The notes: generated from the sequence alone by a model not told the origin. A stretch of 12,353 nucleotides of DNA from a bacterium (GCA_030616165.1 JAUWXV010000100.1:1-12353); one strand, 5' to 3'; shown: positions 1 to 12,353, counted from the stretch's first letter. Numbers and translations: made by a program.

Positions 1-67
1 TGTTCTGTCCCTACATAATAGTCATTTGTAATTGAATATATTGTAGGGACAGGACATTGTCCTGTCC
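1..67. repeat. Inverted pair of REP-like palindromes (REPIN-like), left member cut by the window edge
   Basis: The right member has GTAG at 43-46, then a 9-bp stem GGACAGGAC (47-55), loop ATT and GTCCTGTCC (59-67). The left member is the reverse complement: TGTTCTGTCCCTACA (1-15) matches TGTAGGGACAGGACA (42-56) with one mismatch, and its outer arm lies beyond the window start. The two GTAG ends face each other across about 27 nt. This GTAG-plus-hairpin layout is that of REP elements, and the inverted pairing is that of REPINs. The rest of the upstream region (68-236) is AT-rich; I see no convincing promoter or second gene in it. Confidence 0.75.
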
Positions 68-236
68 TTCTGTTCTAAAGTAAAAGTTGATTTTATTTCG
101 TTTATTACTTTTCCATTTTAAAAAATGTCAGGAAAATATATATCATTTATTATTTAATAGGTCACTAGCTACTTATCTTAAGAAGTGGTTTTTTCGAAAA
201 AGTTGCTAATTTAAAAAATTATTAGACAGAGAAATA

Positions 237-2981
237 ATGGATTTGAGAAACTGTATTAATATAAAAATTCTTTTTGTATTTATTTTGTTATTTCATACGT
301 TGAGACTCTATTCAGGGACAACCGGTAAGATTGTTGGTATCGCGAAAGACAAAAGCACAGGAGAGGGTCTTCCAGGTGTTAATATTGTAATAGAGGGAAC
401 TACATTGGGTGCTGCAACTGATAAAGATGGAAGATACTTCATAATAAATATCCCTGCCGGGAGTTATAAAATATCTGCTTCAATGATTGGATATAAAAGA
501 GTAGATGTAGAGGATTTCAAGGTATTTCCGGATTTTACATCAGAGTTTAACTTCGAGATGGAAATTACACCGATAGAAGGTGAAGTGATAGTGGTGAGGG
601 CGGAGAGACCACTTATCCGGAAAGACCAGACTGCTACTGTGCGTATTATAACCGATGATGAAATAAAAAACTTACCCACTCGTGGCTACCAGCGTGTTGT
701 TACTTTGCAGAGCGGTGTTGTGGAATATGGAGGGGGGCTCATATCAATAAGGGGAGGAAGAACTAATGAAACAGCATATTATGTTGATGGATTTTCTCAA
801 CAGGACCCTTTAACCGGAGTCTCATCTACAATAATTAATAATAATGCTATAGACCAGGTTTCGATAATCACCGGTGGTTTTAATGCAGAATACGGCAGAA
901 TAATGTCCGGAGTTGTTAATGTTATCACTAAAGGAGGCACAAGAGATTATCACGGTTCATTTGAAGCGATTTCTGATGAATTTTCTGGCGATTGGATCAA
1001 AACCAACTCTTTCGGATACAATCTTTATTCTTTTTCTCTAAGTGGGCCTGTTGTTAAGAATAATGATAGATTTTTATTTTTTATCTCCGGGGAGATGAGA
1101 AATTTGGGAGATAGATTTCCGAAAGCCTCTGCTGGGGGCAGGCTTCCGCATAACTCGCTTAGTGGATTTAACTGGCAGGCAAAATTGAACGCTAAAATAA
1201 CAGATACTATAAATGGAGAATTTGCTACACTCGGCTCAAAAGAAAGTAGCGACATATATATTCATAGTTATAAATATAACCTTGAACATGCACCGAAAAG
1301 AGAAGATAGTAATAATTCTTATTATTTCAGGCTCTCACATGCATTGAGCCCGAATTCCTTTTATAAGTTATCTTTTAATCATTTTTATACCGAATCACAC
1401 ACAGGGGACGGGAAGCATTTCAAGAATATCAGTGAATATGGAAGGGAAATACTTGGAAGGCAGTTTGATGATGAGGCTTTGTTTTACTTGGGGGATGACC
1501 CTGAAACAATTGAGGATGATGGAAACCTCTGGAATGATTTTTTTCATAGAGAGTCTTCATACTACGGGCTGAAGGGAAATTTTACATCTCAGATAAACTC
1601 AAATCATCAAATTCGGACCGGATTCGATTTTCAAAGGCATACTTTAAGAATGTATCACCATCTCTTTCCCAGAAATGTTTATGATGGGAATGTGAGAAAA
1701 TACCAGGATTTAGATGTTTACGGATATGACGAAACAGGAAAAAATCATCTCAATTCCGGTTTAAACGGTGCAAAACACCCTATTACCGCTTCCCTTTATT
1801 TCCAGGATAAAATCGAATATCAAGGACTGGTAATAAATGCTGGTTTGAGATATGACTATATAAATCCTGATACCGAAGGATTGAAGGATGAATTAAAACC
1901 TCTTGGTGATGATTCTAAACTCGACCCCGAAGACCTTACATCAGCCAAAGTAGTGAATGAGATAAGCCCGCGTTTGGGTGTGGGATTTCCTATAACCGAT
2001 AGGACAGTCTTTCATTTCAATTACGGTAAATTTCTTCAACAACCAAACTTACAGCATCTTTATGTAAGTTATAGATATCTTGGGTTTAAAATTCCCTTTG
2101 GGGGATATTTTTTCCCCTTCGGAAACCCAAACCTCAAACCGGAGGAGACGACCGCATACGAGGCAGGAGTCGCACATCAACTGGGAGAAAATGTCAGAAT
2201 CGGTGTCACTGTTTATTACAAGGATGTTAAAAATCTTGTGCAGGTGGGAAGAATTACAGGAGAAAAATTTTCGTTTGATTCTTATAGAAATACAGATTTC
2301 GGTACCATAAAGGGATTAGACCTTTCAGTAACACTTCGTCGAATAAGAAACGTCTCGGGGAACTTAGCCTACAGTCTCTCCTTTGCAGAGGGGACTGGCT
2401 CAAGCCCAATCACGCAGAGAAATATTGCATGGACAGGCAGCCAGCAGCCGAAACTCACCGCTCCGCTCGATTTCGACCAAAGGCATAAATTATCGCTGAA
2501 TTTCGATGTAAGATGGGGAAAAAATGAAGGTCCAGAGTTCTTGGGAAAATATCTCCTTGGGAATGGGGGAATAAATGTGGTCATGAATGCAGGAAGTGGA
2601 CTCCCATATACGCCAACCTTTACCCATAATGAAGTCACTCTTGCAAGTGTTTCTTCACAGCCGTCTGGCTCTATAAATTCGAATTACGGTCCCTGGACTT
2701 TCCAAATTGATGCGAAAATTAATAAGATTATATCTGTTTATAAACTGAATTTCAATTTTTATGTATGGATATTGAACCTTTTAAACAGGAAAAATCCAAT
2801 TTCTTTTTATTCTTCAACAGGAAATCCTGAAACAAACGGTTGGCTTGTTACTCCAAATGGGCAGGAATTTATTGAAACTTTCGGGGAAGAGGGTAAAAGA
2901 AAATATCTTGAAAAAGAAAGAAATCCAAATAATTATAATATACCAAGACTTGTAAGGTTTGGTATCTTGATTGATTTTTAA
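237..2981 (+). CDS. TonB-dependent outer-membrane receptor with N-terminal carboxypeptidase-regulatory-like domain
   Basis: Predicted TonB-dependent receptor (914 aa) taking up an unknown ligand across the outer membrane. Residues 1 to about 26 form a signal peptide with a hydrophobic core (ILFVFILLF). Residues 30-111 are a carboxypeptidase-regulatory-like beta-sandwich (GKIVGIAKDKSTGEGLPGVN; TDKDGRYFIINIPAGSY). EVIVVRAE (116-123) resembles a TonB box. Residues about 127-232 are the plug, with SIRGGRTNETAYYVDG and GGFNAEYGRIMSGVVNVITKGG-type motifs. The remainder is beta-barrel, including NPNLKPEETTAYEAG, and the protein ends in ILIDF, with the terminal Phe usual for outer-membrane barrels. 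The ATG at 237 follows only a weak AGAGA; it is preferred because it gives a complete leader. The length is normal for the family, and no SusD-like partner is next to it, so a polysaccharide-utilisation role is not supported. Ligand unknown. The next gene begins after a 251-nt spacer filled by a tandem repeat. Confidence 0.93.
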   Translation: MDLRNCINIKILFVFILLFHTLRLYSGTTGKIVGIAKDKSTGEGLPGVNIVIEGTTLGAATDKDGRYFIINIPAGSYKISASMIGYKRVDVEDFKVFPDFTSEFNFEMEITPIEGEVIVVRAERPLIRKDQTATVRIITDDEIKNLPTRGYQRVVTLQSGVVEYGGGLISIRGGRTNETAYYVDGFSQQDPLTGVSSTIINNNAIDQVSIITGGFNAEYGRIMSGVVNVITKGGTRDYHGSFEAISDEFSGDWIKTNSFGYNLYSFSLSGPVVKNNDRFLFFISGEMRNLGDRFPKASAGGRLPHNSLSGFNWQAKLNAKITDTINGEFATLGSKESSDIYIHSYKYNLEHAPKREDSNNSYYFRLSHALSPNSFYKLSFNHFYTESHTGDGKHFKNISEYGREILGRQFDDEALFYLGDDPETIEDDGNLWNDFFHRESSYYGLKGNFTSQINSNHQIRTGFDFQRHTLRMYHHLFPRNVYDGNVRKYQDLDVYGYDETGKNHLNSGLNGAKHPITASLYFQDKIEYQGLVINAGLRYDYINPDTEGLKDELKPLGDDSKLDPEDLTSAKVVNEISPRLGVGFPITDRTVFHFNYGKFLQQPNLQHLYVSYRYLGFKIPFGGYFFPFGNPNLKPEETTAYEAGVAHQLGENVRIGVTVYYKDVKNLVQVGRITGEKFSFDSYRNTDFGTIKGLDLSVTLRRIRNVSGNLAYSLSFAEGTGSSPITQRNIAWTGSQQPKLTAPLDFDQRHKLSLNFDVRWGKNEGPEFLGKYLLGNGGINVVMNAGSGLPYTPTFTHNEVTLASVSSQPSGSINSNYGPWTFQIDAKINKIISVYKLNFNFYVWILNLLNRKNPISFYSSTGNPETNGWLVTPNGQEFIETFGEEGKRKYLEKERNPNNYNIPRLVRFGILIDF

Positions 2982-3203
2982 TAGTGGTTCGATATATCTA
3001 ATCCGAATGAATTAATGAGGGATTATGGTGTAGGGGTTTGATTTATCAAACCCGAATAAGTTAATGAAGTATTATAGTGTAAGGGTTTGATTTATCAAAC
3101 CCGAATAAGTTAATGAAATATTATTGTGTTGGGATTTGATTTACCGAAACCGAACAAGTTAATGAAGGATTATGGTGTAGGGGTTTGATTTATCAAACCC
3201 GAA
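2982..3203 (+). repeat. Tandem array of 49-bp units, each carrying a REP-like hairpin (4.5 copies)
   Basis: Four consecutive units are exactly 49 bp long (2982-3030, 3031-3079, 3080-3128, 3129-3177), followed by a 26-bp half unit (3178-3203). Each unit starts with a hairpin, best seen as GGGTTTGATTTATCAAACCC at 3034-3053, 3083-3102 and 3181-3200 (9-bp stem, TT centre). The foot before the hairpin is GTAG in units 2 and 5, GTAA in unit 3, GTTG in unit 4 and ATAG in unit 1. Units 1 and 4 have degraded stems. The rest of each unit is a conserved linker (CGAATAAGTTAATGAA). The array fills most of the space between the receptor stop and the next start, and its last hairpin ends 32 nt before that start. 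No T-tract follows the hairpins, so they are not typical intrinsic terminators. Confidence 0.92.
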
Positions 3204-3232
3204 AGCATTTAATTATAAAGTAACAATATATT

Positions 3233-6181
3233 ATGAATAAAAATTTATTGAAGATAACACTTATTCTGATTTTTTCTACTTATTCATTCTCTTCATCTGG
3301 TGGAGTGAGGAAAGATTTAACTGAAGAAAACCTCAAGAAACTTGTAAGAACTTTTGATATTGATAACAATGCAAAGATAGATACTAATAATGTGGAGATG
3401 TATGTTACAAATCACGGTTCATTTGCCTGGAATATCACAACAGGCAATTCAGGATTGATTTTTCCGAAAGGAACAACAAAGACAGCCGTTTTTGCTTCGG
3501 GTTTATGGATTGGAGCAAAAGTGGATGGAGAAGTAAGAACCTGTGTGGCAGAATTTTCTCAGGAGTTCGCACCAGGTAATATGAAGAACAAGACTTTTGT
3601 TCCTGATAATCCGGGCTTTAAAGTATATAAAATAAACAAAAGAGATGGACCGGAGAATCCGGATTGGTTAAACTGGCCATCGGAACTTGGTGCTCCGGTT
3701 GATTCGCATGGAAATCCCCTTGTGCTTGGTGATCAGACGCTTTGGGCGGTTTACAATGATGCTGACCCGAGTTATCACTCAAATAATGCAGGAAACTCTG
3801 ACCCTTTTGGCATTGAAATACAGCAGACTACATTTGCATTTGCAAGACGCGGTCCCCTGAATAATATTATATTTCTCAAGTTTCTAATAATTAATAAGGG
3901 GGAAAATGAACTCAAGGATACATTTATATCTTTGTGGAGTGACCCTGACTTAGGAGGTGCAAATGATGACCTTGTCGGATGTGATGTAGATTTAAGTCTT
4001 GGATACTGCTATAACGCTACAAATAATGATGAACTTTATGGGACTACTCCACCGGCTGTGGGATATGACTTTTTTAAAGGACCAAGAGGAGACAATGGTG
4101 AAATCCTTCCTATGACATCTTTTAATAAATATATTAACGGTACTGACCCAAGGACAAAGTATGAGACTTATAATTACATGCGGGGATTGAACGCAAACGG
4201 CTCTCATGTGATTGACCCTGAGGAAAACAGAATCACAAATTATGTCTGCTCAGGGGACCCGGTTACCAATGAGGGATGGATTGACAGTGACCCTGCTGAC
4301 CGAAGGTTTATGCTGAGTTCCGGTCCTTTTACATTTGCTCCTGGAGATACCCAGGAGGTTGTGGGTGCTATAATTTTAGGGCAGGGCTCAGACCGTCTTA
4401 CAAGTATTAGAGCATTAAGATTTTACGATACATTCGCTCAGGAGGCATTCGATAGAGGTTTCGACCTTCCTGCACCACCTGAAGGACCAAAGGTTAATGT
4501 GACTCATCTTGATAAAAAAATTATTCTCAGTTGGGGCTCTGAACCCGAAGAATATTATGAACCAGGATATAAATTTGAAGGTTACAACGTTTATCAGGGA
4601 GAATCTATTGCCGGACCATGGAAAAGAATCAATACTTTTGATAAAATAAACAATACCACCATAATCTTTGACCAAGTATTTGATATTGAGTCGGGTGTCG
4701 TGGTTAATAAACCGGTTCAATTCGGGAATGATACCGGACTGAGACAGTATATTGAAATAACAAGGGACGAAATACTCGGCGGAAGACTTATTAACGGCAA
4801 ATCTTACTATTTTTCGATAACTGCTTATGGTTATAACCCAAACGGAAAACCCAAAACATTGGAAAACGCATTGATAACAATTGTTGTCATTCCTCAGAAA
4901 CTAACTCCAGAAACAGACTTAACCCCCGTTTTAACTTCGGAAATTAAACCTGTTTATTCAAGAATAGATCAAAATCTTGCACCGAGTACCGATTCAGTCA
5001 AAGTTATAATTGTTGACCCCACAAAAGTAACTGGGCATGATTACAGAGTTGAGTTTAAAAAACTCGATTCCCCGGTAATAGATGACGATGATACAATAAC
5101 TACGGTATGGAATTTATTTGATTTAACAACCGTAAAAACCGTTTTGAAAAATCAGACAAACAAGGTTGGTGATGACCACTACAGCGTTGTTGATGGAATT
5201 CAGGTTAAGGTAATGGGGGGAAGGAAACACGGATTGAGTGAGGTTGTTTATTTGGATAAACCGAATAGCTGGCCGCCCGGACTTGAGCCGGTTGAATGGG
5301 GGGATGGGTTTTTTGATGGATGTGCCGATTTTGGGTTTAATTTCTTTGGGAGTGCTCTTAATCCATATACCAGTCCAGACGAGTTTTTTCCGGTGGAAAT
5401 AAGATTCAGCAATATAGTTACTCAAATGGGATACAGGTATCTTAGGGGAGACAATCCTTCATATAGGTATCAGGATTTTATTAAAGTCCCATTTACAGTC
5501 TGGGACCCAATCAGCAATAAACAGCTTAATTGTGCATTTGCCGAAAATAAGAATTCACCAACAGAAAACAAAAAATGGACTCCGGCAACCTCGGATGATG
5601 GAGGGTGGGAAATAATTTTCATATTCTCGAGCACATATCAGGATACACCTGACCCGGTTTATGTATCGAATAATATCCTTTACAATGCAGATAAATTTGA
5701 CATACTTTATATTATATGGCTTAAGAGAAAAAGGAATGGAATTGCTGTCGATTCGGGGGACATAATCAAGTTTAACTGGAATAATCCAAGCGATTCAAAT
5801 GACATATTTACATTTTCTACTCCAAAAGCCGTATTCGGCGACAAAGAATTAGCAAAATCCAAACTTAAAGATATAAGGGTTGTTCCAAATCCTTATTTTG
5901 GGCATTCATCGTATGAAGTGACCCAGTTTAATAGGGTCGTTAAATTCATAAATCTTCCAGAGAAATGTAAAATTCGTATATTTAATCTCGCAGGTGTATT
6001 GATTCGAACTCTCGAAAAGGATGATCCATCTACATCTATAATTACATGGAACCTTCTTACGGAAAATCACCTCTCACCTGCAAGCGGTATCTACATTTAT
6101 CATATTGAGGCTGAGGGTATCGGAGAAACTATTGGAAAAATGGCTATCTTTATCGAAAAAGAAAGATTAAATGTGTTTTAA
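3233..6181 (+). CDS. Large secreted protein with fibronectin-III-like segment and type IX secretion-like C-terminal domain
   Basis: Exported protein of 982 aa with no assignable enzymatic function. Residues 1 to about 21 look like a signal peptide (NLLKITLILIFSTYSFSSS). The N-terminal half (about 55-400) is a beta-rich region with FASGLWIGAKVDGEVR, a type seen in large uncharacterised exported proteins of FCB bacteria. From about 415 a proline-rich joint (LPAPPEGPKV) leads into a fibronectin-III-like segment (KIILSW; YNVYQGESIAGPW). The last 100 residues form a FlgD-like/type A sorting-type domain: VVPNPYFG (883-890), KIRIFNLAGVLIRTL, SGIYIYHIEAEG and IGKMAIFIEKE. This C-terminus is known as the export and anchoring signal of the type IX secretion system. 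A PorV-family gene downstream fits that role. No Shine-Dalgarno sequence is visible; the ATG is chosen for its leader. An adhesin, or a surface partner of the upstream receptor, are both possible. Confidence 0.8.
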   Translation: MNKNLLKITLILIFSTYSFSSSGGVRKDLTEENLKKLVRTFDIDNNAKIDTNNVEMYVTNHGSFAWNITTGNSGLIFPKGTTKTAVFASGLWIGAKVDGEVRTCVAEFSQEFAPGNMKNKTFVPDNPGFKVYKINKRDGPENPDWLNWPSELGAPVDSHGNPLVLGDQTLWAVYNDADPSYHSNNAGNSDPFGIEIQQTTFAFARRGPLNNIIFLKFLIINKGENELKDTFISLWSDPDLGGANDDLVGCDVDLSLGYCYNATNNDELYGTTPPAVGYDFFKGPRGDNGEILPMTSFNKYINGTDPRTKYETYNYMRGLNANGSHVIDPEENRITNYVCSGDPVTNEGWIDSDPADRRFMLSSGPFTFAPGDTQEVVGAIILGQGSDRLTSIRALRFYDTFAQEAFDRGFDLPAPPEGPKVNVTHLDKKIILSWGSEPEEYYEPGYKFEGYNVYQGESIAGPWKRINTFDKINNTTIIFDQVFDIESGVVVNKPVQFGNDTGLRQYIEITRDEILGGRLINGKSYYFSITAYGYNPNGKPKTLENALITIVVIPQKLTPETDLTPVLTSEIKPVYSRIDQNLAPSTDSVKVIIVDPTKVTGHDYRVEFKKLDSPVIDDDDTITTVWNLFDLTTVKTVLKNQTNKVGDDHYSVVDGIQVKVMGGRKHGLSEVVYLDKPNSWPPGLEPVEWGDGFFDGCADFGFNFFGSALNPYTSPDEFFPVEIRFSNIVTQMGYRYLRGDNPSYRYQDFIKVPFTVWDPISNKQLNCAFAENKNSPTENKKWTPATSDDGGWEIIFIFSSTYQDTPDPVYVSNNILYNADKFDILYIIWLKRKRNGIAVDSGDIIKFNWNNPSDSNDIFTFSTPKAVFGDKELAKSKLKDIRVVPNPYFGHSSYEVTQFNRVVKFINLPEKCKIRIFNLAGVLIRTLEKDDPSTSIITWNLLTENHLSPASGIYIYHIEAEGIGETIGKMAIFIEKERLNVF

Positions 6182-6231
6182 CTTATTTACCTGCGTCTAT
6201 TCATAAATGCTGAATTTCATAATATAAAGAG

Positions 6232-6292
6232 TGTCTTTTCGAGCGGAGTCCGAAGGACGTAGTCGAGAAATCTCAAAAAAATAGAGATCTCT
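6232..6292. repeat. Dispersed palindromic repeat of the CGAGCGGAGTCCGAAG family
   Basis: The core CGAGCGGAGTCCGAAG (6240-6255) recurs exactly at 8562-8577. Here it is followed by GACGTAGTCGAGAAATCTC, which can fold back on the core imperfectly (GGAGTCC GAA GGAC), and then by the short palindrome AGAGATCTCT (6283-6292). Repeats containing CGAG...GTCGAGAAATCTC are common dispersed intergenic elements in Bacteroidota-like genomes. The function is unknown. Confidence 0.6.
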
Positions 6293-6330
6293 TCCAGAGT
6301 AATCGGGGGATTCGCTGTAGCGGAACAAAC

Positions 6331-6348
6331 TTTCTTTTTAAAAAGAAA
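6331..6348. repeat. Perfect 18-bp AT-rich palindrome
   Basis: TTTCTTTTTAAAAAGAAA is exactly self-complementary. As RNA it has no loop, so a protein-binding dyad or chance in AT-rich DNA is as likely as a hairpin. A small hairpin (GCTC TTTTG GAGC) follows about 8 nt downstream. Confidence 0.45.
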
Positions 6349-6381
6349 CATTCATGCTCTTTTGGAGCACCACGAAATATG

Positions 6382-6399
6382 AAAATATATTCTATTTTC
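6382..6399 (+). repeat. 18-nt direct repeat, copy 1
   Basis: AAAATATATTCTATTTTC is repeated exactly at 6543-6560. The two copies lie either side of the inverted hairpin pair at 6444-6510. They may mark a duplication or an insertion, although the low complexity makes chance possible. Confidence 0.5.
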
Positions 6400-6443
6400 T
6401 GGATTAATTATGTAAGTTCAGATTTAACAAAAATTAATATAAA

Positions 6444-6510
6444 GGGCTTGATAAATCAAGCCCCTACAATTATAATGATAACATTTGTAGGGGTTCGATT
6501 TATCGAACCC
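6444..6510. repeat. REPIN-like element: two inverted REP hairpins joined at their GTAG feet
   Basis: The left member reads GGGCTTGATAAATCAAGCCC (6444-6463), a 9-bp stem followed by CTAC (6464-6467), so on the - strand GTAG precedes the hairpin. The right member has GTAG (6487-6490) followed by GGGTTCGATTTATCGAACCC (6491-6510), again with a 9-bp stem. The GTAG feet face each other across 19 nt. Compared with the hairpin of the 2982-3203 array, both members carry paired substitutions that preserve the stem (TTTGAT/ATCAAA, TTCGAT/ATCGAA, CTTGAT/ATCAAG). No T-tract follows, so terminator function is unlikely. Confidence 0.88.
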
Positions 6511-6542
6511 GATAATTAAAATATTCATATTCGTTTAATTTA

Positions 6543-6560
6543 AAAATATATTCTATTTTC
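6543..6560 (+). repeat. 18-nt direct repeat, copy 2
   Basis: This is the exact second copy of the sequence at 6382-6399. It lies 61 nt before the start of the PorV-like gene. Confidence 0.5.
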
Positions 6561-6621
6561 GGACTAAAGTAATGAACTTCAATTACAATTAAAAAACTTA
6601 TAAAAGCTTTACAATAAAAAT

Positions 6622-7632
6622 ATGAAGAAGATATTTTTCGTAATTATCATATTATTATTCAATATTGGAAGTGTTTTTGCGGGAAACAGCCTTCGAAAGG
6701 GAACTTGCGGTGCACTTGAATTAATTATTCCAATTGGCTCCAGATCCACGGCAATGGGCGGTTCTGTTGTTGCTGATACCAGGGGAACTGAGGCAATTTA
6801 TTGGAATCCTGCAGGTGTGGCTAATACCGAAGGAACAGAAGTCATCTTCTCTTATTTGAATTATATTGCCGACATAAAATATTCTTTTATTGGAATTACT
6901 ACAAATTTAGGAAACTTTGGTTCTTTGGGTTTTAATACAAGGGTCATGAACATAGGAGAGATAATCGTTACTACCGAAGAGAGCCCTGACGGGACCGGTG
7001 AAATTATTACTCCCAATTTTATAGTAGTCGGATTTACCTATTCAAGACAGATGACAGATAGAGTATTTTTCGGCAGTTCAATGTCGGTGATTCACGAGAG
7101 GATTATGCAGGAGACTGCCAGAGGTGTGGCTTTTGATTTTGGTTTTCAATATATTCCCGGAGTAGGAGGACTTAAACTTGGTGTTGTAATGAAAAACATA
7201 GGACCAAAAATCCGTTTTGCTGGCTCAGACCTCGATAAAAACATTCGTCTCCCGGAAGATAATCCTCAGGCTGCTAACAGAACTGTTAGACTGGAACTTG
7301 CCTCGTTTGAAATACCCTCATATCTTCAATTTGGCTCATCTTATGATTTTAAATTTGATGAGAACAAAAGTTTTATCCTCTCTGCTTCCTTCAGAAACAA
7401 CAACTTTTCAAGCAATGAATTTTCAGGTGGGGGAGAATTTAATTATAAGAATAAATTTATGCTGAGAATGGGATATTCCTCTTCATCTGAAAGAGAATAT
7501 ATATACGGATTAAATTTCGGATTAGGATTAAGTTTCGATTTTGGAGGGAGTGTTCTTACCTTTGATTATTCCAACGGACAAACAAAATACTTTGACAATA
7601 ATCAGTGGTTTACATTTAAATTAAAATTTTAG
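6622..7632 (+). CDS. PorV/PorQ-family (UPF0164) outer-membrane beta-barrel protein
   Basis: Predicted outer-membrane barrel of 336 aa. Residues 1-20 are a signal peptide (MKKIFFVIIILLFNIGSVFA, with likely cleavage after FA). The hallmark of the family follows: GSRSTAMGGSVVADTRGTEA (39-58), then IYWNPAGVA (59-67). The rest is a run of amphipathic beta-strands ending in WFTFKLKF with a terminal Phe. PorV itself is an outer-membrane component of the type IX secretion system that receives cargo from the translocon and passes it to the attachment complex. This family also contains many paralogues of unknown role. Its position directly after a protein with a sorting-type C-terminus supports a delivery or surface-anchoring role, but that is inference. 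The length matches the family. The start was chosen for its complete leader; no Shine-Dalgarno is visible before it. Confidence 0.87.
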   Translation: MKKIFFVIIILLFNIGSVFAGNSLRKGTCGALELIIPIGSRSTAMGGSVVADTRGTEAIYWNPAGVANTEGTEVIFSYLNYIADIKYSFIGITTNLGNFGSLGFNTRVMNIGEIIVTTEESPDGTGEIITPNFIVVGFTYSRQMTDRVFFGSSMSVIHERIMQETARGVAFDFGFQYIPGVGGLKLGVVMKNIGPKIRFAGSDLDKNIRLPEDNPQAANRTVRLELASFEIPSYLQFGSSYDFKFDENKSFILSASFRNNNFSSNEFSGGGEFNYKNKFMLRMGYSSSSEREYIYGLNFGLGLSFDFGGSVLTFDYSNGQTKYFDNNQWFTFKLKF

Positions 7633-7658
7633 CCATCTTGTTAAATCTTCTTATTCCC

Positions 7659-7686
7659 TTGACTTATTCCCAAATATATATATCTT
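7659..7686 (+). promoter_or_regulatory. Possible promoter for maf
   Basis: TTGACT (7659-7664) is separated by 16 nt from TATCTT (7681-7686), about 50 nt before the maf start. The match to a housekeeping promoter is only fair, and the area is AT-rich, so this is a weak call. Confidence 0.22.
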
Positions 7687-7736
7687 TTGTAATGGTATAC
7701 CTTTAATTTAATAGATAATTATATAAGAAACAAAAA

Positions 7737-8324
7737 ATGTTTGAATTTCTTAAAAAACAGAGAATTATATTGGCATCAAAATCACCGAGAAGAGCTGATA
7801 TATTAAGACAACTTAAAATTGATTTCGAGATAATAGATAGTGAAGTTTCCGAAGAACCATTTGAAAATGATGCGTCTATTGAAGATTATGTTATGAGGAT
7901 ATCTGATAAAAAGGTTATGAACGTTGCAGGAAAAATTACAGATGGGATTATTATTGCCGCAGATACTATTGTTACAATTGATGGACAGATACTTGGAAAA
8001 CCTAAAAATTGCGACGAGGCAAAAAATATGCTTAAAAGATTAAGCGGTAGAATACATTATGTCTATACAGGTGTGAGTGTCGTTTTGAATCCGGGCTTTA
8101 TTAAAAAGAGCGATTATGAAATCACAAAAGTTAAATTCAGAAAATTAAATGATAACGAAATTAATTATTATGTCGATTCTGGGGAACCTATGGATAAAGC
8201 AGGGAGTTATGGTATTCAGGACCTCCCGGCAATTTTCGTGGAAAAGATTGACGGATGCTATTTTAATGTGGTTGGTCTTCCCTTGACTAAGGTTTATCTC
8301 TTGATGAAGTCTTTGGTAAAATAA
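7737..8324 (+). CDS. maf: Maf-family nucleoside triphosphate pyrophosphatase, YhdE (dTTP/UTP) type
   Basis: Cytoplasmic pyrophosphatase of 195 aa, the usual Maf length, expected to hydrolyse dTTP, UTP and related (including modified) nucleotides to the monophosphate plus diphosphate, a house-cleaning reaction. The N-terminal signature ASKSPRRADIL (13-23) contains the SxSPRR substrate loop. AADTIV (74-79) supplies the acidic metal-binding Asp76, and GKP (87-89) the conserved Lys88. DKAGSYGIQ (153-161), with Lys154 and Gln161, is the form typical of the YhdE subgroup rather than the m7GTP-specific YceF subgroup. The protein closes with the usual NVVGLPL motif (177-183). There is no signal peptide. 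The ATG at 7737 has no clear ribosome binding site but puts the SPRR motif at the usual distance from the N-terminus. It is not obviously linked in function to its neighbours. Confidence 0.95.
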   Translation: MFEFLKKQRIILASKSPRRADILRQLKIDFEIIDSEVSEEPFENDASIEDYVMRISDKKVMNVAGKITDGIIIAADTIVTIDGQILGKPKNCDEAKNMLKRLSGRIHYVYTGVSVVLNPGFIKKSDYEITKVKFRKLNDNEINYYVDSGEPMDKAGSYGIQDLPAIFVEKIDGCYFNVVGLPLTKVYLLMKSLVK

Positions 8325-8332
8325 TTATGACT

Positions 8333-8356
8333 GACAGACAAGAATGTCTGTCCTAC
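8333..8356 (-). repeat. REP-like hairpin with GTAG foot, on the - strand
   Basis: GACAGACA (8333-8340), loop AGAA and TGTCTGTC (8345-8352) form an 8-bp stem, followed by CTAC (8353-8356). Read on the - strand this is GTAG directly against the stem, the same layout as the other REP elements here. It begins 8 nt after the maf stop codon. A following T-tract is absent, so it may protect the 3' end rather than terminate. A partial copy (ACAGACAAGAATG) lies at 12165-12177. Confidence 0.75.
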
Positions 8357-8360
8357 TAAT

Positions 8361-8380
8361 TAACCTGAATAATTCATAAA
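8361..8380 (+). repeat. 20-nt repeat shared by the 3' flanks of maf and tldE, copy 1
   Basis: TAACCTGAATAATTCATAAA is found exactly at 12195-12214. The likeness extends on both sides in degraded form: ACAGACAAGAATG lies upstream in both places, and TATTGAT...ATTATTAATG downstream. It looks like a dispersed intergenic module of roughly 80-95 nt, possibly the end of an old mobile element. Confidence 0.65.
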
Positions 8381-8450
8381 ATTATCTGTTTTGTTAGATA
8401 ATTTATTGATTCTTTTATAATTATTAATGAACCGCCTGTTAAAAATAAAA

Positions 8451-8501
8451 GTAGGGGTGAACTTGCCTGCCCTGTGGGCCTGCCCTTCGGGTTCACCCTA
8501 C
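8451..8501 (+). repeat. Larger GTAG hairpin element
   Basis: GTAG (8451-8454) and GGGTGAAC (8455-8462) pair with GTTCACCC (8491-8498), whose end overlaps a closing CTAC (8498-8501). The interior holds a smaller hairpin, GCCC TGT GGGC (8469-8479). It is markedly GC-richer than its surroundings. The layout resembles the other REP-like elements but with a longer, possibly inserted, apical part. Confidence 0.68.
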
Positions 8502-8532
8502 TGGATTACATAATATAATATAGTGTCATTTT

Positions 8533-8577
8533 CCGCCAAAGGCTGATCCGCCTTTGGTGGACGAGCGGAGTCCGAAG
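8533..8577. repeat. Hairpin joined to a CGAGCGGAGTCCGAAG repeat
   Basis: CCGCCAAAGGC (8533-8543) and GCCTTTGGTGG (8550-8560) form an 11-position stem with one wobble around a 6-nt loop. Immediately after comes the 16-nt core CGAGCGGAGTCCGAAG (8562-8577), identical to 6240-6255, and then a truncated REP. The block is a mosaic of at least three repeat types. Confidence 0.6.
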
Positions 8578-8581
8578 CTCC

Positions 8582-8598
8582 GTAGCCGACCCTGCGGG
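8582..8598 (+). repeat. Truncated REP element of the CCGACCCTG family
   Basis: GTAG (8582-8585) is followed by CCGACCCTG, but the loop and most of the right arm are missing (only CGGG remains). The downstream flank, GGGAAATATAAATTTT, is the same as after the complete copy at 8750-8775. The truncation abuts the tldE remnant. Confidence 0.6.
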
Positions 8599-8668
8599 AA
8601 ATATAAATTTTCCAGTGGATGGTATTACCCTTGGTGGAAATACTCTTAATTTGCTAAAAAATATTGAA
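8597..8668 (+). pseudogene. Remnant of the 3' end of a tldE/pmbA-like gene
   Basis: Read from 8609, the codons give FPVDGITLGGNTLNLLKNIE, matching FPVDGVTLGGNALDMLENID at residues 401-420 of the intact TldE (11949-12008). Over the 60 aligned bases I count 51 identities, and several differences are synonymous. In-frame likeness may reach back to 8597 (GNIN against GEIA). After 8668 the match ends and a repeat begins. This motif belongs to the C-terminal domain of the TldE/PmbA family, so the piece is what is left of a second tldE-like gene that stood upstream of tldD. An open frame running on to 8800 crosses REP sequences and is not a real gene. The piece is bounded by GAAATATAAATTTT before and GAAATACAAATTTT after, which suggests repeat-mediated rearrangement. 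Confidence 0.82.
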
Positions 8669-8703
8669 GAAATACAAATTTTTATTCTTTTATTTCAATT
8701 TTT
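8669..8703 (+). repeat. 35-nt exact direct repeat shared by the tldD and tldE leaders, copy 1
   Basis: All 35 bases (beginning GAAATACAAATTTTTATTC) recur at 10605-10639. Here the copy follows the tldE remnant directly; at the second site it follows a complete REP hairpin. It is therefore a REP-flanking sequence that has been separated from its hairpin at this site. Confidence 0.85.
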
Positions 8704-8749
8704 AATGACTCATAAGGTCCATAAATACATGTCATTGCGAGATACCTCC

Positions 8750-8775
8750 GTAGCCGACCCTGTCCACAGGGTCGG
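8750..8775 (+). repeat. REP element of the CCGACCCTG family in the tldD leader
   Basis: GTAG (8750-8753), CCGACCCTG (8754-8762), loop TCCA and CAGGGTCGG (8767-8775) make a perfect 9-bp, GC-rich stem. It ends 25 nt before the first tldD ATG and 16 nt before its ribosome binding site. If transcribed it would form a stable hairpin in the tldD leader. A matching element lies in the tldE leader at 10692-10717. Confidence 0.85.
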
Positions 8776-8791
8776 GAAATATAAATTTTTT

Positions 8792-8796
8792 AGGAG
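8792..8796 (+). promoter_or_regulatory. Ribosome binding site of tldD
   Basis: AGGAG lies 4 nt before the ATG at 8801 and 7 nt before the ATG at 8804. The 7-nt spacing equals that at tldE and makes the second ATG a slightly better start; the choice changes the protein by one Met only. Confidence 0.75.
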
Positions 8797-8800
8797 ATAA

Positions 8801-10324
8801 ATGATGAAAAGTCATCTTAAACCAATTACACGGAGAAAATTCTTAAAAACAGGAATTGCTGGCGGATTTATTACTGCTACCCTTCCCCTCTGGAAACTTT
8901 TTTCTTTTTCTGCTCCTCCTTCTGATTTTTATGTCAATCCTGCCTGCAATCTTTCAAAGGAAACACTTGAGAAACTTATTAAAATTGCCCTTCAGCGCGG
9001 AGGTGAGTTTGCTGAAGTTTATGTTGAATACACGGTGAGTAATAATATCTCCTTAGAAGAAGATAAGATTCATGGAGCACTTAGAGGCGTGGATATGGGT
9101 GTTGGAATTCGGGTTCTTCACGGTGAAAAAACCGGCTATGCTTTTTCTGATGATTTAACTTTTGACAAACTAAAACAAACGGCAGAAGTTGCAAGTCTCA
9201 TCGCTTCTGAAAAGGAAGTAAAAAATCCCGTTGGATTAAAATCTTCCAAAATTTCTTCTTATTACCAGGTGAAAGTTTCTCCTGACAGCATTGTTATCCA
9301 GAATAAGGCAAAACTCCTCTTGAAGGCAAATTCCGTCGGTCGAGAATATGACAAAAGAATTAACCAGGTCAATGTAATTTTCTCTGATACGAATAAGAAA
9401 ATTATCATTGCTAATTCGGATGGAATTTGGGTAGAAGATGTACAAACTCTGACTAACTTACATGTTAATGTCAATGCCATAGAGGACGATAAAAAAAGTC
9501 GTGGTGAAGCTTATAAACAAGGTACGTTGGGTTATGAACATTATGACTTAAAATTAGCGGAAGAATTAGCAAAAGATGCAGGTAGAATGGCAATAGCAAT
9601 GCTCCCAGCAGAAGATGCTCCTGCAGGCGAATATCCAATAGTTCTGGCAAAAGGAGACTGTGGTGTATTTTTCCATGAAGCAATAGGACACAGTCTGGAG
9701 AGTGATGGAATTAGAAAAAAAACTTCCTGTTTCTGGGACAAAAAAGGAGAAATGATTGCTTCCTTGGCTGATGATGGAACAGTACCTGGAGCAGGGGGTT
9801 CAATCAATGTTGATGATGAAGGAACACCCGGTCAAAAGACTGTTCTTATTGATAAAGGTAAGTGCATCAACTTTCTCTACGATAGACTGAATGCAAAATT
9901 AATGAATGCAAAATTAACCGGAAACGGAAGAAGAGCATCCTACCAGCATTATCCCATTCCAAGAATGACAAATACCTACTTAATGGCAGGAGAAGATGAC
10001 CCCGAGGAAATAGTAAAATCGGTCAAAAAGGGGATTTATGTTGCTCTAATTGGAGGAGGAAGTGTCTCACCGACTACAGGAAGATTTGGATTTTCTGTTC
10101 CTGAAGGATATCTAATTGAGGATGGCAAAATTACAAATCCGCTCAAAGGAATCCGGCTTATGGGAAATGGTCCGGAAGTATTAGAAAATATTGTTACGAT
10201 AGGACATGACTTAGAAATTTTGCCAGGAACATCATGTATGAAAAGTAGACAGATAATGCCAATTTCTTGTGGAAATCCAACCTTGAAAGTTTCTAAGATA
10301 ACCATTGGCGGTGCAAAAGTATAG
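8801..10324 (+). CDS. tldD: TldD-type metallopeptidase with a twin-arginine (Tat) signal peptide
   Basis: Catalytic subunit of the TldD/TldE metallopeptidase, known in other bacteria for degrading unfolded peptides and for maturing microcin and RiPP precursors. The 507 aa begin with a Tat leader: TRRKFLKTG (10-18) followed by a hydrophobic stretch to about residue 37. The N-terminal PmbA/TldD domain starts near residue 52 (LEKLIKIALQRGGEFAEVY; GVGIRVLHGEKTGYAFSDD). The C-terminal domain holds the metal-binding HEAIGH (292-297, HExxxH), and Cys479 (GTSCMKSRQIMP) lies where the family has its third metal ligand. The end is GNPTLKVSKITIGG. The excess over the roughly 480 aa of E. coli TldD is about the size of the Tat leader. 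The Cys is followed by MKSRQ instead of the more common GKxGQ. It stands 424 nt before tldE. Export would be unusual compared with the classical cytoplasmic complex. Confidence 0.92.
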   Translation: MMKSHLKPITRRKFLKTGIAGGFITATLPLWKLFSFSAPPSDFYVNPACNLSKETLEKLIKIALQRGGEFAEVYVEYTVSNNISLEEDKIHGALRGVDMGVGIRVLHGEKTGYAFSDDLTFDKLKQTAEVASLIASEKEVKNPVGLKSSKISSYYQVKVSPDSIVIQNKAKLLLKANSVGREYDKRINQVNVIFSDTNKKIIIANSDGIWVEDVQTLTNLHVNVNAIEDDKKSRGEAYKQGTLGYEHYDLKLAEELAKDAGRMAIAMLPAEDAPAGEYPIVLAKGDCGVFFHEAIGHSLESDGIRKKTSCFWDKKGEMIASLADDGTVPGAGGSINVDDEGTPGQKTVLIDKGKCINFLYDRLNAKLMNAKLTGNGRRASYQHYPIPRMTNTYLMAGEDDPEEIVKSVKKGIYVALIGGGSVSPTTGRFGFSVPEGYLIEDGKITNPLKGIRLMGNGPEVLENIVTIGHDLEILPGTSCMKSRQIMPISCGNPTLKVSKITIGGAKV

Positions 10325-10378
10325 TGCTGTTTAATTATGATTGAAAAGTATATGATTCAAATTATAAATTTTAAATAC

Positions 10379-10536
10379 TAAATTCTAAACAAATTAAAAT
10401 GACCAAAATCCAAAATTCAAAACAATGCGATTAATAAGATAGAACCTTAATATTTAATAAAGAAATTGAATTCATAATAGAAAAATTAAAATTTTATAAC
10501 ATTTGAAATTTGAATTTCCTATTTATTTAGAATTTA
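10379..10536. repeat. Long imperfect inverted repeat, MITE-like, AT-rich
   Basis: The outer arms TAAATTCTAAACAAAT (10379-10394) and ATTTATTTAGAATTTA (10521-10536) are complementary at 15 of 16 positions. Further inward, AAATTC/GAATTT segments also face each other with gaps. No transposase fits within 158 bp. Similar AAATTCTAAA...TTTAGAATTT inverted elements are known as dispersed non-coding repeats, but low complexity limits certainty. Confidence 0.55.
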
Positions 10537-10578
10537 GAATTTATTATTATTTGTATATTTTTCTTTTTTTGTAGATTC

Positions 10579-10604
10579 GTAGCCGACCCTGTCCACTGGG
10601 TCGG
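10579..10604 (+). repeat. REP element of the CCGACCCTG family, third copy
   Basis: GTAG (10579-10582), CCGACCCTG (10583-10591), loop TCCA and CTGGGTCGG (10596-10604) form a stem with one mismatch at the eighth position. It is followed directly by the 35-nt repeat shared with 8669-8703. Confidence 0.8.
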
Positions 10605-10639
10605 GAAATACAAATTTTTATTCTTTTATTTCAATTTTT
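10605..10639 (+). repeat. 35-nt exact direct repeat shared by the tldD and tldE leaders, copy 2
   Basis: This is identical over 35 bases to 8669-8703. Here it is the natural downstream flank of a complete REP hairpin, so this copy is likely closer to the original arrangement. Confidence 0.85.
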
Positions 10640-10652
10640 GGGTGTTTCTGCT

Positions 10653-10677
10653 GGCAAAGGTGTTCTTCACCTTCGCC
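10653..10677. repeat. Hairpin between the two REP copies
   Basis: GGCAAAGGTG (10653-10662), loop TTCTT and CACCTTCGCC (10668-10677) form a 10-position stem with one mismatch. The hairpin is GC-rich against an AT-rich background. No GTAG foot is evident on the + strand, so it may be another repeat family. Confidence 0.6.
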
Positions 10678-10691
10678 CACAAAATACCTTC

Positions 10692-10717
10692 GTAGCCGAC
10701 TCTGTCCACAGGGTCGG
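10692..10717 (+). repeat. REP element of the CCGACCCTG family in the tldE leader
   Basis: GTAG (10692-10695), CCGACTCTG (10696-10704), loop TCCA and CAGGGTCGG (10709-10717) form a 9-position stem with one G-T wobble. It ends 31 nt before the tldE ATG, close to the 25-nt distance at tldD. Confidence 0.82.
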
Positions 10718-12214: not shown

Positions 12215-12290
12215 CTTCTAGGCATATTATTGATATTATTAATGTTACTATAGAAGTACCTTTGAAACAATGCTAAGTGTCGCTGCTATC

Positions 12291-12353
12291 GTCATCCTGA
12301 ACTTGTTTCAGGATCTAATATGAAATCTGAAGATAGATTCCGAAACAATACTG
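12291..12353. repeat. Dispersed palindromic repeat pair of the GTCATCCTGAAC type, cut by the window end
   Basis: ATCCTGAA (12294-12301) and TTCAGGAT (12307-12314) form an 8-bp stem with a 5-nt loop, preceded by CGTC. GTCATCCTGAACTTGTTTCA is a well-known type of dispersed intergenic repeat in many bacteria. AGATTCCGAAACAA (12333-12346) resembles the inverted copy of the same element, so the window probably ends inside an inverted pair. Confidence 0.6.

Follow-up and report, generated by a model that had tools for sequence, protein, structure and literature searches.

Palindromes that directly follow the tetramer GTAG recur along the window, i.e. the whole stretch of 12,353 nucleotides of bacterial DNA analysed here, which constitutes contig C73 of a genome of 3.74 Mb in 343 contigs (a 90%-complete assembly) and encodes a TonB-dependent receptor, two proteins without a Pfam match, a Maf protein and two TldD/PmbA proteins. 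This raises the question of whether the palindromes are REP elements and, if so, whether they are served by several REP-associated tyrosine transposases (RAYTs) or by one with relaxed stem specificity. A sequence-only reading of the window had placed GTAG next to at least five stem sequences, and all five were located, on either strand (Table 1). In keeping with the GTAG REP superfamily, a short stem, perfectly paired and closed by a small loop, begins immediately 3' of GTAG, and the copies are numerous and mostly intergenic, the CCGASCCTG family being low-copy. It is very probable that the palindromes are REP elements of this superfamily, that several families coexist in one genome and that each family most likely owes its amplification to a RAYT (TnpA_REP) of its own, whose binding, cleavage and mobility would follow those of studied relatives.

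Table 1. REP elements, their remnants and their arrays in the window.
Feature	Position	Strand	Basis or remark
Left-REP remnant (GTAGGGACAGAACA side) of a tail-to-tail dimer	1..14	-	The full dimer, with this spacer, occurs in L012 and L060; 53-bp pitch also at C11, C17, C54, C170, C213 and C302
REP GTAG+GGACAGGACA-t-TGTCCTGTCC (stem GGACAGGAC), right half of the same dimer as 1..14	43..67	+	~57 exact GGACAGRAC-family places genome-wide
Head-to-tail tandem array, 4.5 copies of a 49-bp REP-carrying unit	2982..3203	+	Tandem Repeats Finder
REP GTAGGGGTTTGATTTATCAAACCC (stem GGGTTTGAT)	3030..3053	+	GTAG-footed, in the 49-bp array
REP copy with GTAA foot	3079..3102	+	1 mismatch; in the 49-bp array
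Decayed REP copy (GTTGGGATTTGATTTACCGAAACC), foot lost, pairing partly lost	3128..3151	+	Sequence reading; third array unit
REP GTAGGGGTTTGATTTATCAAACCC (stem GGGTTTGAT)	3177..3200	+	GTAG-footed, in the 49-bp array
REP GTAGGGGCTTGATTTATCAAGCCC (stem GGGCTTGAT), left half of the 67-bp tail-to-tail dimer 6444-6510	6444..6467	-	GTAG-footed; the 67-bp dimer recurs elsewhere
REP GTAGGGGTTCGATTTATCGAACCC (stem GGGTTCGAT), right half of the 67-bp dimer	6487..6510	+	Same stem, with one 3'-arm difference, at a RAYT 3' end (C182:26123-26146)
REP GTAGGACAGACATTCTTGTCTGTC (stem GACAGACA)	8333..8356	-	~9 bp past the maf stop codon; 127 places at <=3 mismatches
Double-foot REP GTAG-GGGTGAAC...28 nt...GTTCACC-CTAC, long loop	8451..8501	+	GTAG-adjacent stem at 8451-8498; 13 distinct places with loops of 2-28 nt; the C283 RAYT gene contains this stem too
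CCGACCCTG REP, truncated, with most of the loop and 3' arm missing	8582..8598	+	Sequence reading
REP GTAGCCGACCCTGTCCACAGGGTCGG (stem CCGACCCTG)	8750..8775	+	GTAG-footed
REP GTAGCCGACCCTGTCCACTGGGTCGG, CCGACCCTG copy with one stem mismatch	10579..10604	+	Pattern search
REP GTAGCCGACTCTGTCCACAGGGTCGG, CCGACCCTG copy with one stem mismatch	10692..10717	+	Pattern search

The association of GTAG with hairpins extends well beyond the window. In 72 other contigs of the genome (748 kb, every fourth contig, a single sampling scheme), perfect stems of at least 8 bp with loops of 2-7 nt were collected and the tetramer directly 5' of each was recorded. GTAG preceded 59 of the 1385 stems, while 2.1 were expected from its own frequency, which corresponds to a 28-fold enrichment; the runner-up in this sample, TAGG, largely represents GTAG elements offset by one base, and a single dinucleotide shuffle of the sampled contigs gave no GTAG-preceded stem. 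Moreover, 57 of the 59 lay outside open reading frames, while the coding share of the sample was 81%, both by a rough mask of ORFs of at least 100 aa drawn up without a gene finder. The genome search for GTAG plus a stem of at least 8 bp in intergenic DNA, as proposed in the sequence-only reading, thus returned a strong excess in this 748-kb sample.

An intergenic position, in some cases right after a stop codon as at 8333 past maf, would also suit intrinsic transcription terminators or mRNA-stabilising elements to which GTAG is incidental, and an influence on mRNA has been proposed for other REPs (PMC3733652). However, on reading the sequence no T-run directly 3' of the stems is seen, an Rfam search of the window gave no match, identical units of 23 to 67 bp are dispersed with their non-paired spacer included, and the GTAG excess would have no place in this explanation, which is very improbable and was rejected. 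The REPs may nevertheless have a secondary role in mRNA.

Copy numbers of the individual families were obtained by searching the entire genome for each pattern. The most abundant of the window's families, GACAGACA/GTCAGACA, occupies up to 127 places at <=3 mismatches, followed by GGGYTYGAT with ~61 places at <=2 mismatches and GGACAGRAC with ~57 exact places, for which larger raw totals reflect near-palindromic matches counted on both strands. The GGGTGAAC family occupies 13 distinct places and CCGASCCTG is present in ~10 copies, with CCGACCCTG at four places and CCGAGCCTG at six, the latter in one array. The same patterns read backwards gave no match in the genome. Further families occur in the 748-kb sample, among them GGGCGAAC, GGGCGGGT and the double-foot AGACATGC, and GACAGACA is present at low copy number, once exact, in three other genomes of the phylum. 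A double-foot family, GTAGAGACRTGCCATGGCAYGTCTCTAC, was observed at L013, L026 and L060.

Two families, both represented in the window, form dimers. CTTGAT and TTCGAT stems stand tail to tail at a constant pitch of 43 bp in about ten places, and the 67-bp unit 6444-6510 recurs at C49 (L019) without any change, even in the unpaired spacer, and at C181 (L052) with a single-base difference. The GGACAGAA/GGACAGGA pair constitutes a similar unit of ~78 bp with a 53-bp pitch and a conserved linker. Both units consist of two inverse REPs with a linker and recur in the genome, as is the case for BIMEs; since the dimers conserve their spacers and 67 bp are identical in two places, they were evidently copied rather than formed by convergence. 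This bears on the paired substitutions TTTGAT/ATCAAA, TTCGAT/ATCGAA and CTTGAT/ATCAAG, from which selection on structure had been argued. The substitutions are real and preserve pairing, but they mostly tell apart subfamilies that were amplified as units and so say little for selection beyond the copying step. For the most part, the CTTGAT stem and the TTCGAT stem each make up one half of a single dimer that spread as a whole, and their copies are therefore not independent evidence of selection. Covariation over distinct sequences showed pairs 4 and 6 changed on both sides, while pairs 1-3 also occur in unpaired states, a pattern which fits a hairpin required at the time of copying and offers no evidence for an RNA role.

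The repeats also touch the architecture of the contig itself. The contig start falls within the left half of a GGACAGAA/GGACAGGA dimer unit, and the edge at position 1 is therefore probably a repeat-induced assembly break. A AAATTTTTATTCTTTTATTTCAATTTTT stretch at 8675-8705 and 10610-10640 precedes both tldD-like genes near REPs, which suggests, as far as the sequence goes, that intergenic DNA was duplicated around these paralogues.

The genome encodes the corresponding enzymes. Seven genes exceeded the cut-off for Pfam Y1_Tnp (PF01797) in a genome search, while no match to PF01797 was obtained in one relative of the same family. The more specific model NF047646 (REP-associated tyrosine transposase) identified nine ORFs of 177-255 aa, on C182 (twice), C283, C302, C51, C268, C108, C207 and C329, as well as several fragments; two scored above the curated 80-bit cut-off (126 and 103), one reached 79 and the rest 54-73 bits, with highly significant E-values. 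The sequences feature the HUH motif, the catalytic tyrosine helix and the WQ motif, and H92, H94, W159, Q160 and Y180 are invariant in alignment A2. The C108 protein was modelled with AlphaFold2 (mean pLDDT 80.6), and the top PDB match of the model is 4er8, E. coli RAYT in complex with its REP hairpin (E 8e-7). With respect to TnpA_REP subclass 2.4, the C108 protein (NHFH, WQ, YIINNP, with an internal GGGCACA stem in its gene) and the C268 protein (NHFH, WQ, YIFNNP) conform, while C283 and C302 contain an in-frame internal REP and deviate from the exact motifs (DHIH, Y(I/M)ENHP). As the HUH fold is common to RAYTs and IS200 transposases, and weak matches to NF033573 were obtained, classical insertion sequences might alternatively have moved the elements, which would then be ordinary MITEs or IS200/IS605 ends. 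These matches, however, stayed under the cut-off of NF033573 and were far weaker than those to NF047646, and the repeats are single palindromes of 23-26 bp that have a foot on one side and do not form the two ends of some longer element; such an origin is scarcely credible and was likewise rejected.

The presence of a RAYT gene flanked by the same hairpins had been anticipated, and several of the nine RAYT-like ORFs indeed are flanked by or contain stem families of the window. As in a REPtron, the stem of four of the five window families recurs, unchanged or nearly so, at or in a RAYT gene or remnant. The RAYT at 14.8 kb of C182 is embedded in an array of ~41-bp units and has CCGAGCCTG stems to either side, and the one at 26.2 kb of the same contig ends at a GGGTTCGAT REP. 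A GGGTGAAC REP lies inside the C283 RAYT and a near-identical one inside the RAYT at 9.1 kb of C302, while a 5'-truncated RAYT at 3.1 kb of C302 starts at a GGACAGAAC REP and ends near a second. This remnant (L176:1444-1760, C302 ~3070-3386) comprises the C-terminal half only, with the internal REP at its left bound and another REP to the right, and by its sequence looks as though cutting or recombination had taken place at the internal REP. The C51 RAYT (L004), which exceeds the NCBIfam cut-off, is accompanied by two copies of a CGCCCTGGGT hairpin (CGCCCTGGGTTTCATTACCCAGGGCG), its locus holds no GTAG hairpins, and it may belong to the Bacteroidetes-type subclass 2.6 with atypical structures.

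A small number of RAYTs, or even a single one, could in principle move all families if their specificity were relaxed and they read mainly GTAG together with any short stem that has a GC foot. Most families share GTAG and a stem with a G-rich foot, a whole-stem swap affected one group-3 RAYT only moderately (PMC8266576), and for the GACAGACA family no RAYT of its own, and none adjacent to it, was found in the 90%-complete assembly. Yet different stems stand at or in different RAYT ORFs and, among the related loci of other genomes described below, the core stem inside the RAYT gene equals the flanking stem in 31 of 37, compared with 3.7 (sd 1.8) when loci are shuffled, which points to a pairing of enzyme and repeat at the level of the stem. 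Relaxed specificity is hence rather unlikely. Of the two possibilities raised by the sequence-only reading, several RAYTs are better supported, since different RAYTs carry different window stems; several RAYTs with different REPs fit best, a situation already described in other genomes (PMC3733652, PMC6006769).

For studied relatives, recognition of foot and hairpin as single strand, HUH cleavage and copying have been described (PMC8266576). By analogy, a REP stem would fold where DNA becomes single-stranded, e.g. at the replication fork, the RAYT would read the GTAG foot together with features of the hairpin, its HUH/tyrosine centre would cut nearby, and the REP or REP dimer would be copied or moved to a new site. 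On this ground we infer that the RAYTs of this genome bind, cleave and mobilise REPs, and the REPs here have probably been spread by them.

A further feature of the system is the REP within the RAYT gene itself. The internal REPs of C283 and C302 are translated as RRGEL(V/I)HPDD, VGxDLSA(Q/R)IH and REGRVNPPLR, and others occur in C108, C268, C207 and C278. Among the 80 relatives most similar to one query (alignment A1; many phyla, chosen irrespective of hairpins, with counts that ignore relatedness), a GTAG or GTGG hairpin lay within the matched stretch in 68 and at most 400 bp away in 40. Hairpin density across these 80 loci amounts to 2.85 per kb inside the gene, 1.62 beside it and 0.105 beyond 1 kb, GTAG hairpins thus being 15- to 27-fold denser in or beside the RAYT gene than farther off. 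The internal element usually starts 15-45 nt past the HUH codons (median ~28). Its reading phase is GTA-GGG in 37 cases and xGT-AGG in 19, while the phase in which TAG is a stop is almost absent, as expected for translated DNA; stop codons occur in 7 of the 80 matched stretches. A tree of 74 RAYTs, built to see whether internal REPs arose once or many times, was poorly resolved: its best version calls for 8 changes of reading phase, of which well-supported branches require only 1-2. In the C108 model, the REP-coded residues lie in a loop of low confidence that connects the HUH strand (92-99) to the helix after it (132-151).

In some foreign genomes (L108, L125, L138, L140, L143, L162), the exact REP of the RAYT gene was observed only at its own locus or in few places; an internal copy can hence be maintained even where there is no wide dispersal of its exact sequence, and a RAYT is not always accompanied by such dispersal. 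The existence of in-frame REPs within RAYT genes was briefly remarked on in 2018 (PMC6006769), and no other report was found in the open-licence literature; new here are their quantified frequency, position and stem matching. That the internal REP of group-4 RAYTs is a conserved functional part, i.e. a copy of the cognate substrate placed just past the HUH codons and tolerated because it encodes a loop, and no stray insertion, is a tentative proposal that is somewhat doubtful at present. If correct, the internal REP would ensure that enzyme and substrate stay together when transferred or, alternatively, a RAYT could bind its own gene or transcript via this element and thereby limit itself; a changed internal REP could also seed new stem families. 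With 68 of 80 group-4-like genes carrying a hairpin near a fixed site, it becomes testable whether the transposase needs its own substrate in the gene. Likewise, the pairing of enzyme and repeat could be tested within a single organism here, as its genome combines nine RAYT-like ORFs with five or more REP families.

With regard to known systems, a CGTC-tagged hairpin (CGTCATCCTGAACTTGTTTCAGGAT) was observed at 12290-12314, with 18 genome places at <=2 mismatches, mostly with a TGTC foot. It recalls the CGTC-tagged repeats and Rickettsia palindromic elements, has a different foot and is not part of the REP finding; no associated transposase is known for CGTC repeats (PMC3733652). The E. coli RAYT (PDB 4er8; group 2), the best structural match of the C108 model, recognises GTAG and hairpin as a single strand, as the enzymes here presumably do, but needs a bulge (PMC8266576) which the perfect palindromes of this genome lack. 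Closer is TnpA_REP subclass 2.4, or RAYT group 4 (PMC6006769), with which the C108 and C268 proteins share NH[IFV]H, WQ and YIxNNP, and the repeats share stems that open with three G-C pairs as well as double-foot REPs; C283 and C302 (DHIH, Y(I/M)ENHP) and the RAYT at 26 kb of C182 (NHLH, YIIDNP) depart from this consensus. The GTAG-tagged REP families of Di Nocera et al. 2013 (PMC3733652) likewise have a one-sided GTAG foot, stems of 6-9 bp and short loops, are mainly intergenic with some REPs inside genes, form tail-to-tail and head-to-head dimers as well as clusters, and coexist as several families per genome with repeat-specific RAYT loci. The stem sequences here differ from theirs, and the 49-bp array is arranged head to tail, a form called absent or under-represented there. 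Taken together, the stems of the window and their RAYTs are a new example of a known system, not a new system.
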